Below the pieces are notes generated by a model. That model was not told the DNA's origin. It saw only the letters and a list, made by a program, of their open reading frames with translations, and did no database searches. The position numbers and the translations under genes were made by a program. 64,000 bases of DNA from Chondrilla cf. caribensis (lineage: Eukaryota; Porifera; Demospongiae; Chondrillida; Chondrillidae). The stretch covers positions 1,856,048-1,920,047 of the forward strand of contig OZ026563.1 in assembly GCA_964020155.1 (NCBI GenBank), written 5' to 3'. Of this stretch, positions 251-44,154 are shown piece by piece (position 1 is the stretch's first letter; the number at the start of each line of letters is the position of its first letter).

Positions 251-3200
251 AGTTTTCTCCATTTTCTTTGTTGTCAAGGTAACACAGACAGATGATGTCC
301 GATTGATTCAACTGAATATTCAACAATGCTCCACACTTCTTCACATCCACAGTGGCTGTGAGGATCTGCTTGTCTTCAACATGAAATGTTGTCTCTGAAG
401 AGCTTAATACAATGCCAAGTGCTTTGGCTGTTACAGTCAGAGTGTGGTCACCAGGGGGAGTACTCTTAGGGATAGAGTACGGAGAGGAACCTATGTAGTG
501 AAACAATGAATAAAGGGAAGATCTGTACTGTATGTACAGTATGCACACAACAAAGAGAATATTTATACCTACTCCTATTTTCATATTATGTTTTAACAAC
601 TCCCAGATGTGTATGTTCAAAAGATCACTCCCATTTTTGTGCTATTACTGACCACTCCCAAATGACCACTCCCATATCTGTCATACAAATACTCACACTT
701 TGTCTCCTCATTGTCATCCACTCTGCAGTAGTACTCTGCTACAGAACACACGTCAAATGTTGCAATGTTCTTGTCCTCATCTTTAGAAACTGCAGCAACA
801 GAATTACAGCTATATGAATGACACCCGCACCCATAGACACACCCACACCCACACATGTACACCCACAGATGCACATGCACACACCCACACCCACACCCAC
901 ACACACCAACACCCCCCCCACCCCCCACCCCCCCTCCCCCCACACACAATCCTACATCCACTGATTGGCTACAATATCTTCACACAGTACCAAGAGAAAC
1001 AAACCACAAGCATACCCACATGTGCATGAATGTACGTATATTGCATAAGGTCTACTGAACTACTGTATATCTCATTGACAGTATATTCTCCATCTCATCA
1101 TTATATATCAGCACAGTACACAAAGTAAATCCTGCAATACAGTGTCACCTTCACACACTGGGTATGATGAGCCCAATATTGGATGCAGTACACACACTAC
1201 GTACAGTGCACAGCACCCCAAGGTGAAGAGTTGTAAGTACACACACTCTACACAGCACTCAGCACTCCAAGAATCTACAGTGCACACAATACCAGTCCTC
1301 AGCAATGACAGGCTGAATCAACCAGCCCTCATGACTGCTGACTATACAGCCACATCCAGCATGGAGATGGGTCTCACCTGTCACTTTCCCCACTTCCACA
1401 CTGTCAGGCACTTGAGCTGTGAAACTTGTGGTTACTTTGGTGGAGGGGTTACAAGATAAGGAAGCCTCCACTTCAACCATATGCCTGCCCGCAGCTAGCC
1501 CCTCTACGACATCATTGTTGGCACCTATGGTAGTACATATACACACACAAGACTTAGTATATACACACTGCAACACATACACTGATGCACAATAAGAACC
1601 AAATGATGTGGTCTATAGTGGAAGGATGTACTGTAGGTACCCAGAATACAGCCATTCAGAAGACTTGCATATTAACAGCTCTCGGGCCTCTATGAACCTA
1701 AGCAGTACCTTTGTACGGAAAGAGACTTCTCCATGCCAGATGTCCCATAATGATGTCAAAGTGGCTCATTTAGGAGGAATTTAGCTTGAGAAGATTTTCA
1801 TAGTTTTCCAGAGCCACCCCTGTTTCTTGCTTCCTCTTTGTATAACTATCTATCCCTCGAAAGTAAGTGAAGAGGAAACAGAAAAGGGGCCGGCTGTGTG
1901 AGAATAAACGTTCCCACATAGGCAGTTGTCCTGTTTTAGCATAAAGTTTGCCACAAGGAGTGTACTCACTATAAGGATTTGTAGACTTACATGTTTGCCA
2001 GTTTCCACTGTCTATCCTACACCTCAGGGTAGCAGGCTCTGTTGTCATGATAGTATACTTGCCAGTTGAACATTCTACTTCCATTCCGGCTTTCGAAAAC
2101 TCCAAATTGGAACCGACAGTGAATGAGTAATTCTTCTCCCCCTCTACTTTAGAACACTTGGCGGAAGTAGCTTGAATGTTGAAATTGTACTCACCAGCAC
2201 AAAGATTGGAATAAGATGAGCAGTTTGAGCCTATGTCATGGAAGGAATTGCAAGATACATACGCATCATACCAGCCACATGTGATGTACAGTGAAGACAT
2301 GGGTGTACAATACTGCTCTACTACACACACAAAGAAATGCAATATCTATGTAAAGTACAGTCACATACAGTACAGCGGGTATTGGGTACATACATTTATG
2401 CTCTATGTACAGTATGTTATCAACACCATAAATGTCATGATGTGCATACAGCATGTATAGGACATACGTTATAGACTGCAGTAGTCTCATGCATAAAGTA
2501 CTGTATGTGTATATGTATTGTGCCATACACAGCTAATGAAACACACACTGTCAGTTGAAACTGTTGATTACAAGTGCAGTGAGACTGACGGGTTATTACC
2601 AAAAGAATGGTTGACACAGCTGTAAATTAAGTCCAACTCACAAGGAAGCCACTCTCTGTTGTCCTGGGAACCAGCTATGGTCAGTCTGCACTTGAGGTCT
2701 GCAACCACTGAACTGCTAAAGCAGGCTGTAAACAGGTCTTCATTGACATGTGTGTTGAGTTGAAGGCTGACGTCTGTAGGGAGAGAACATCCATGTCATA
2801 TGTACATGCAAACAGCTTATACACAACTATACTTCTAAACTGATGCATGACCACATCAAAGGATTTATTGCATCTGTATACGTATTCCGTACAGATCTAT
2901 ATTGCCCTATCTTTTAGCATAGTGGGAAAATACAGATAAATGTCATTTTCTAACACGGAAACTACCGGTGAACTTGTGAAAAGTATTTATTACTGAAGTA
3001 TTCAAATAGCTAGGTTTCAGTCACTTTGAACCTTCAGAGCTCTTATAGCATCTGTTTGGATGCAGGTTATAACCTGCCCCCTCGCTGTATGATGTTGGTA
3101 AGCACTCCACCCTTGGGCATTGTGCTTATAATGATCATACAACTTGGAAGTGGGCTATAACCTATACACAGAGGCCAGGGATACATAGGTACAGTACAGT

Positions 3201-3732
3201 CATAGCACATACATTATACATACGTACCATAAGTGGCTATCTCAAAGTTTTGAACCTTTTCTGTTGTAATGCCATTAGCCAGTGCCCGAACAGAAGCCCT
3301 ATGAGGTCCTGGGCACAGCTCACTGAATGTCCTGCACTCAGAACCTTTGAACAGAGAGTACATGTACACTTAAGATCCACATACAGATACTGCACACAAA
3401 TGAAGGTACGTATGTACCATACAATCAAAGGTATTATCTTCAAGAATAGAAGAGTACAAGAGATGAAGGGGGAGGTGCTTAAGTAGAAATAGACCTATTC
3501 TCCTATGCATATGGTTTCAGTTAACACCATATGTATGTAGGTTTGCAAAACTGGTCAACAACTAAACAGAAGTCAAAACCAAACCATAGAGTGATTCTGA
3601 GTAAAAATGGAAGCTCACATTCTGTCCAGTCTCCATCATCCACTTTGCACTCGACCACTGCTTTGTGACTCACTGAGTGACAAAGACTAACTTCAGATTG
3701 AGTTGGAATAGCAGTGATGTTCAGTTGGAGAC
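251..3732 (-). CDS. Gene A exons 31-37: super-repeat 5 (four domains), not duplicated in gene B
   Basis: Exons: 31 3619-3732 (VVECKVDDGDWTEC), 32 3228-3344 (SECRTFSELCPGPHRASVRA), 33 2642-2773 (ACFSSSVVADLKCRL..WLPC, slightly longer than its equivalents), 34 1991-2230 (240 nt, SNCSSYSNLCAGEYNFNIQA then MEVECSTGKYTI..WQTC), 35 1378-1524 (HMVEVEASLSCNPS, VPDSVEVG), 36 697-789 (FDVCSVAEYYCRVDDN), 37 251-490 (240 nt, SSPYSIPKSTPPGDHTLTV and then a new first half, ICLCYLDNKENGENC). Types 3 and 4 are split by an intron here, as in super-repeats 1 and 2. Exon 37 begins a further domain that may be completed beyond the window. Confidence 0.82.
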
Positions 3733-43959: not shown

Positions 43960-44059
43960 CTCACAACAGTAGCTGAATTCAGTAGTTTCAGAAGAAGACT
44001 TGTTAGCAGTGCAGACCACTATCTCTCTCAGCAAACTATTTTGGGTAGTTTGAGCTCCA

Positions 44060-44154
44060 ACTGAGCAGATCCTTGAGGTGCTGCCTCATTTATACTGGCT
44101 CCAATGCTAGATCTATTAATTGAGTCATATAGATCAAAATAACCACAGGAATGT
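44060..44154 (-). promoter_or_regulatory. Gene B core promoter with TATA box and upstream conserved block
   Basis: Minus-strand TATAAA at 44089-44094, 130 bp before the gene B ATG. The same 17-bp AACCACA/GGAATGT block lies at 44138-44154, 44 bp upstream of the TATA. The 5' untranslated segment matches gene A almost base for base. Confidence 0.65.

Follow-up and report, generated by a model that had tools for sequence, protein, structure and literature searches.

Two tandem genes built from half-domain exons

We describe a pair of tandem genes, A and B, on the minus strand of a 64,000-nucleotide stretch of the genome of the sponge Chondrilla cf. caribensis (137 Mb in 37 contigs). Contig C37 of this genome bears a COX1 gene that translates without interruption under genetic code table 4; its top-ranked match, at 91% identity, is a protein cluster labelled Demospongiae, compared with 87% for the first cnidarian row, so that a demosponge is the most likely source. 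The stretch, hereafter the window, is C18:1856048-1920047 (contig OZ026563.1); positions count from its first letter, and negative positions lie to its left. Both genes are built from exons that each encode half of a domain. The exons were found with hidden Markov models (HMMs) for the two half-domains, seeded with exons of the same locus, and were chained by a script scoring HMM matches, acceptors, donors and split cysteine codons; two weak exons (41060 and 28059) were then removed, a few boundaries were replaced by hand, and the 5' ends were completed. Of the exons inside the window, 38 belong to gene A (21093 down to 44), the last of which spans the left edge (44 to -198, with 1..44 inside the window), and 28 belong to gene B (43959 down to 28766), whose last frame is open as far as a stop at 28656. 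An initial annotation, made from the letters alone, had likewise recognized two genes and counted 65 exons; the number in the window is 66. Median introns measure 407 bases in gene A and 373 bases in gene B. When the exons are joined, as that annotation had proposed, the window part of gene A yields 1800 amino acids and gene B 1239 amino acids, with no stop in either, so that its description of giant, duplicated proteins holds for this tandem pair.

The interval first assigned to the genes truncates gene A, which continues about 9 kb leftward. Beyond the left edge the chain takes in ten further, divergent half-domain exons down to about -8125, several of them weak, and a candidate last exon, a C-terminal half with a stop, lies near -9172. 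With this outer part included, gene A comprises 48 exons and 2264 amino acids and contains a single stop, which falls at a joint beyond the left edge.

Most domains are cut internally by an intron, and borders between the second and third of the four domain types described below carry none. Before final corrections, 28 of 45 introns in gene A and 14 of 24 in gene B lay inside domains and split a cysteine codon, the remainder falling between domains. In these gene models half-domains meet at phase-1 introns, as the initial annotation stated, save for the intronless type 2/type 3 borders; the uniformity of phase and of split cysteine codons is, however, partly by construction, since the exon search required the former and rewarded the latter. 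For this reason, firmer support for the gene models comes from the open spliced frames and from the exon-by-exon agreement of the two genes, whose exons align whereas most of their intron sequence does not.

These observations bear on the concern that the genes are decaying, or that the exon chain was assembled by the search and corresponds to no real gene. Such a concern could draw on the choice of boundaries by score and in some cases by hand, on the removal of two low-scoring exons, on the stop left at one joint outside the window and on the stop of gene B within its fourth super-repeat. We nevertheless consider it highly unlikely, given the stop-free frames in the window, the alignment of exons but not of most introns, and a ratio of nonsynonymous to synonymous divergence (dN/dS) of 0.38 between the genes; moreover, the same kind of HMM scan returned no matches when run on 234 kb of reversed or of complemented sequence.

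The two genes begin alike. Exon 1 (43920..43959 in gene B, containing the start codon; 21054..21093 in gene A) is 40 bases long and identical in both, and together with exon 2 (43555..43620 and 20627..20692, respectively) it translates as MAAFKWGCGLSYLLLMMVAPVQVNAQ in gene B and MAAFKWGCGLSYLFLMMMTAILQVNAQ in gene A. Judged by eye, this start looks like a signal peptide in both genes, in agreement with the initial annotation. Immediately upstream of exon 1, translated pieces of the two genes agree at 98% of 57 residues in one case and at all 29 residues in another. We note that exon 1 and its upstream sequence are near-identical between 43920-44100 (gene B) and 21054-21230 (gene A) in a pair of genes most of whose introns cannot be aligned; either a constrained shared promoter or recent homogenization might account for this stretch.

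A four-domain super-repeat and its likely history

After one N-terminal domain (domain 0; 18869..19403 in gene A, exons 19403-19299 and 18991-18869, and 42065..42666 in gene B, exons 42666-42562 and 42193-42065), the domains of both proteins follow a fixed order of four types. The series 1-2-3-4 recurs five times in gene A (14121..17885, 9459..13657, 6531..9051, 3941..5913 and 290..3732), confirming the order first proposed, and three times in gene B (37542..41434, 33977..37156 and 31254..33545), where types 1 and 2 of a partial fourth super-repeat follow (28656..30880). At 28656-28912, gene B stops in frame where gene A goes on, which could reflect either a shorter product or the onset of decay.

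A tree of 40 domains retains the imprint of this order. The type labels require 9 changes on the tree, against a mean of 25.0 for shuffled labels, and none of 200 shuffles required as few. No type forms a clean clade (3, 2, 2 and 3 changes for types 1 to 4, respectively), and types 1 and 2 are mixed, with weak support. At the same time, each of the 14 gene B domains has as its partner in the tree the gene A domain from the corresponding position. The simplest order of events that would produce these patterns begins with a four-domain unit, which would have been expanded in tandem before the whole gene was duplicated.

Cysteine content distinguishes the domain types

The four types differ in their cysteines and in the motifs around them. 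The pattern CxxC-x5-[ILV]CxG, which generalizes the TSCxxYxxLCPG motif of the initial annotation, is present in 18 of 18 domains of types 1 and 2 and in none of the 16 of types 3 and 4, bearing out the assignment of an extra cysteine pair to the first two types. The other proposed type-specific marks fared unevenly. WxxC had been given as a feature of types 1 and 2, yet a tryptophan three residues before the cysteine at the exon joint occurs in 8/9 type 1, 9/9 type 2 and also 8/8 type 3 domains, and only type 4 lacks it (0/8). VEVEAxLxCNP does characterize type 3 in a loose form (7/8 domains) but is exact to the letter in only three of eight, counted by eye. Type 4 indeed lacks the extra cysteine motif, and C[ST]SP is found in all eight of its domains, whereas SSPYSIP as such appears in only three (also by eye). 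A third-strand cysteine stands at a set spacing in 8/9, 8/9, 8/8 and 8/8 domains of types 1 to 4, the joint cysteine having been used to select the domains.

The number of cysteines per domain core is nearly fixed within each type: five in seven of nine type 1 domains and seven in the other two, six in all nine of type 2, four in all eight of type 3, and three in seven of eight type 4 domains, with five in the eighth. The count is consequently odd in 17 of 17 domains of types 1 and 4 and even in 17 of 17 of types 2 and 3. Because the two odd types are also the ones that adjoin at super-repeat borders, their odd cysteines probably form a disulphide between a type 4 domain and the type 1 domain that follows it, or else link separate chains.

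Distant homologues among giant bacterial proteins

A protein search with a long query, in which the best 7992 candidates by shared words were scored, returned 63 proteins (a first search with a shorter query had returned two). The top match, of 2797 amino acids, had an E-value of 2.0e-153, with 24% of residues identical and 94% of the query covered; such very low E-values arise in part from the summing of many repeats. All named matches are bacterial, including proteins of Solirubrobacterales, Gaiellaceae and Roseiflexaceae, and many of the relatives carry precomputed Pfam assignments to Big_13, Big_3_3, Big_3_2 and Y_Y_Y. The absence of animals among the named matches has little meaning, since the organism is not given in most rows and sponge proteins may be scarce in the database.

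Domains were also compared by profile. A profile of 75 bacterial domains, taken from five selected members of the 63 with a pattern that demanded the cysteine pair, aligned with the sponge domain profile (40 rows, of which the program retained 37) at 99.1% over 68 columns in hhalign, compared with 0.2% for the reversed sponge profile. An HMM of the bacterial domains matched 28 stretches in gene A, two of them flagged as doubtful, and 14 in gene B. In the bacterial alignment (20 of 65 relatives aligned), the cysteine columns C175 and C185 are nearly invariant, and 70 of the 75 sampled bacterial domains have W, F or Y three residues before the joint cysteine. Pfam scans of three spliced stretches also place Y_Y_Y (PF07495) above its gathering cut-off of 26.6 bits, with scores of 31.7, 31.5 and 43, and the gene B stretch exceeds the cut-off of PKD (28.1 against 23.5). 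The initial annotation had likened the general repeat to extracellular immunoglobulin-like (Ig-like) patterns and could assign the architecture to no named protein; the bacterial homology and the Y_Y_Y matches now supply kin for the repeat, and by these profile comparisons the sponge domain is a distant homologue of bacterial Ig-like repeats and no orphan. No named protein of the same architecture turned up in the searches made, as that annotation led one to expect, and no such sponge protein appears among the matches listed from the open-access literature, a weak negative given that subscription papers fall mostly outside it.

Other searches delimit this kinship. The Ig superfamily proper (V-set, I-set and kin) gave no match up to E 10 or E 1 in Pfam scans of the spliced stretches, and a single-sequence search of PDB gave none up to E 1. 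Two further candidates were set aside: Pertactin, the lone Pfam match of two joined exons (0.028, under the cut-off), and the four matches of a PDB profile search, which are unconvincing (best 0.026). A search of bacterial and archaeal genome contigs with one 80-amino-acid exon as query gave 67 pattern matches, none of them confirmed as a close relative.

With only bacteria among the named proteins, one might suppose that a bacterial gene for Ig-like repeats was recently transferred horizontally into the sponge, a proposal about origin and not about function. We regard such a transfer as very improbable: identity is only about 24%, the genes contain dozens of introns, some of them within domains, the contig relatives of the 80-amino-acid exon are unconfirmed, and the missing animal matches, for the reasons above, say little.

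The Pfam scans bear likewise on sponge aggregation factors. Calx-beta domains and a Wreath domain are components of these factors. No Calx-beta match appeared in our scans, which covered gene A left of the window only to about -1161. A large secreted sponge repeat protein with clustered paralogues would otherwise suit the core protein of an aggregation factor or a close relative, and these factors are the known sponge adhesion proteins (PMC8380372), but without a Calx-beta match this identification, already weakened, is scarcely credible.

Purifying selection and uneven silent divergence

To compare the two genes, we used 25 exon pairs, that is, all exons of gene B apart from its two signal-peptide exons and exon 42193. 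Over these pairs, dS is 0.352 and dN 0.133, giving the dN/dS of 0.38. Taken pair by pair, the ratio is undefined in three cases and otherwise stays below 1, with a maximum of 0.84. Selection between A and B is thus purifying overall, and the initial description of the family as rapidly diverging is not upheld.

Silent divergence is nonetheless spread unevenly. Among 435 fourfold-degenerate sites, 81 differ, and their distribution over exon pairs departs strongly from uniformity (chi-square 82.2, 24 degrees of freedom; none of 10000 permutations as high). The unevenness can separate the halves of a single domain: in one type 1 domain, the N-terminal half (30880/5913) shows no differences at 16 fourfold sites (dS 0), and the C-terminal half (30112/5569) shows two at nine (dS 0.64), while in another type 1 domain it is the C-terminal half (33188/8594) that is nearly unchanged (0/22, dS 0.03) and the N-terminal half (33545/9051) that has diverged (3/14, dS 0.45). 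The single contrasts are small, yet taken jointly they fit short, roughly exon-sized tracts of homogenization; silent-site constraint in some exons is an alternative account.

This pattern raises the question of whether a half-domain exon can act as a unit of recombination, with N- and C-terminal halves exchanged between the two genes by exon-sized gene conversion. Phase 1-1 exons whose partners meet at a conserved cysteine would make halves exchangeable without loss of frame, and if the idea were true, splicing might perhaps skip or swap exons as well, with both the frame and the hairpin disulphide kept. We hold the idea to be decidedly doubtful. Were it correct, the cluster would yield families of chimeric Ig-like domains in a sponge, their super-repeats fastened at the odd-cysteine joint of types 4 and 1, and would thereby open a way to diversity in extracellular recognition or adhesion that needs no classical Ig genes.

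A cluster of related genes

Between about -96 kb and -13.8 kb the plus strand carries similar half-domain exons, so that related genes on both strands form a cluster over about 140 kb. Genome searches found most members here, with counts that are lower bounds and leave room for members elsewhere: four queries matched only within the C18 cluster (9/9, 28/28, 5/5 and 30/30, some of them weak), and a fifth gave three strong matches in the cluster and four weak ones, three of which are on other contigs. In a genome search with Y_Y_Y, no single exon exceeded the cut-off; eight sub-threshold matches were obtained, three of them in the window, and the matches of the family searches were mostly on other contigs. 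The corresponding Big_13 search gave two sub-threshold matches (E 0.085 and 0.088), none in the window and both at C2:3959887-3961079, a possible second site of Ig-like repeats in the genome.

Clustering on both strands, together with silent divergence that fits exon-sized gene conversion and that no permutation in 10000 matched for unevenness, might suggest a recognition system, in which A, B and their plus-strand neighbors would serve as secreted receptors for self and non-self or for microbes and would be diversified by exchange of half-domain exons. Selection tells a different story, being purifying overall with no defined exon ratio above 1. Nor was a membrane segment seen in the in-window proteins, whose longest stretch of hydrophobic and small residues is 12 by a crude measure. 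On balance we regard a recognition role as unlikely.

Several other features of the region deserve mention. Within the plus-strand part of the cluster, at C18:1804482-1807909 (about -51.6 to -48.1 kb), eight two-exon Ig-like domain units recur roughly every 449 bases, and their C-half exons are 98-100% identical in protein; we take this to be a recent domain array. A 47-base tandem repeat of 12.5 copies adjoins the gene cluster (L016 1-585). Long CA/TG repeat tracts occupy introns and the space between genes at approximately 6.7-7.0, 14.8-15.3, 23.7-24.3 and 41.7-42.1 kb. On the plus strand of the window, an open frame at 57827-58099 may encode a snapin-like protein, and another at 62756-63082 contains what we take to be an ankyrin-like stretch; a long CACA-rich repeat region (62910-63946) lies opposite the latter. 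An Rfam search returned no matches, and a tRNA scan of the window found none.

A putative secreted adhesive or matrix rod

We favor, with a probability of roughly 60%, the interpretation that A and B encode secreted, disulphide-braced adhesive or matrix rods of Ig-like domains with distant homologues among bacterial repeats. Each protein would be a very long secreted chain, with more than 20 Ig-like beta-sandwich domains, that descends from a four-domain unit expanded in tandem before the duplication of the whole gene. Most domains would retain the hairpin cysteine pair of the bacterial type, with the internal intron beside it, and types 1 and 2 would add a further pair in the following loop. 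Successive super-repeats would be bolted together where type 4 meets type 1, by a disulphide linking the two domains, or else chains would be cross-linked; outside the cell, the product may serve adhesion or matrix as a rod that is stiff and resists proteases. The suggestion of such a rod draws on the regular, disulphide-stiffened four-domain period and on the nearest structural kin of a bacterial relative, which is an adhesive giant.

That relative, P0147, was modelled as a string of Ig-like sandwiches, for which Foldseek ranked fragments of the grappling hook protein GhpA highest. Also among the better matches of P0147 (E 8.4e-18) is the mastigoneme protein MST1 of Chlamydomonas, which has nine tandem Ig-like domains (PMC11015965), and it could accordingly be asked whether the sponge proteins build a mastigoneme-like extracellular filament on the choanocyte flagellum. 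We give this very little credence. The Ig-like domains of MST1 contribute little to filament formation (PMC11015965), the sponge genes show no cysteine-rich or proline-rich polymerizing part, and the match itself is that of a generic Ig string.

Several points weigh against our preferred interpretation of an adhesive or matrix rod. The P0147 model has low identity to the sponge protein and a predicted template modelling score (pTM) of 0.36, which leaves the arrangement of its domains unsettled, and the fold has been modelled for this bacterial relative only. Structural kinship would in any case say little about function, because many unrelated strings of Ig and fibronectin type III (FN3) domains match the P0147 model too. 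When searched singly against Pfam, none of 16 sponge domains reached E 0.01, and Big_13 (PF19077) is missing from the Pfam matches of both the three spliced stretches and these 16 single domains. Finally, gene A has only a provisional 3' end, given about 200 bases in that stretch that read as N and the one stop at a joint left of the window.

If the rod interpretation is right, the cluster would supply a further candidate, next to the aggregation factors, for the proteins of sponge adhesion or matrix. More generally, Ig-like repeats related to ones in giant surface proteins of bacteria are here placed in a large, intron-rich animal gene cluster with a four-domain period and type-specific cysteines, which offers a concrete test case for whether phase-1 introns make half-domains exchangeable units.

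Comparison with known systems

The closest likeness is to the giant bacterial proteins with Big_13, Big_3_3, Big_3_2 and Y_Y_Y domains (e.g., P0123). Like the sponge proteins, these consist of tandem domains of about 80 residues, with a third-strand cysteine, a second cysteine after an aromatic residue, and then [ST][SP]P and L..G.H...V.A. They differ in sequence (about 24% identity), in having two cysteines per domain (in the 75 sampled, for which the pattern demanded both) where the sponge domains have three to seven, in lacking introns, and, for P0123, in a C-terminus that we interpret as a sortase-type anchor. GhpA of Aureispira, known from solved fragments, is a more remote comparison, as its match belongs to the bacterial relative and not to the sponge protein, and identity is 14%.

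Among eukaryotic systems, sponge aggregation factors differ in their Calx-beta domains, absent here from the Pfam scans, and, as large secreted adhesion proteins that occur in a family (PMC8380372), resemble A and B in the role proposed for them. MST1 shares tandem Ig-like domains outside the cell, but it has in addition a proline-rich helix and a cysteine-rich region held by 26 disulphides (PMC11015965), neither of which was seen in the sponge genes. Class 1-1 modules are bordered by phase-1 introns in beta-rich extracellular proteins (PMC8001218), a layout that the sponge domains may share, phase 1 having been imposed in our search; the sponge domains depart from that scheme in being mostly halved by a further phase-1 intron at the conserved cysteine and in having intronless borders between types 2 and 3. 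What is new, then, is the combination: a sponge gene cluster with bacterial-like Ig repeats, four domain types in a set order and each with its own cysteine count, introns that split domains at a conserved cysteine, and uneven divergence between paralogues on the scale of single exons.

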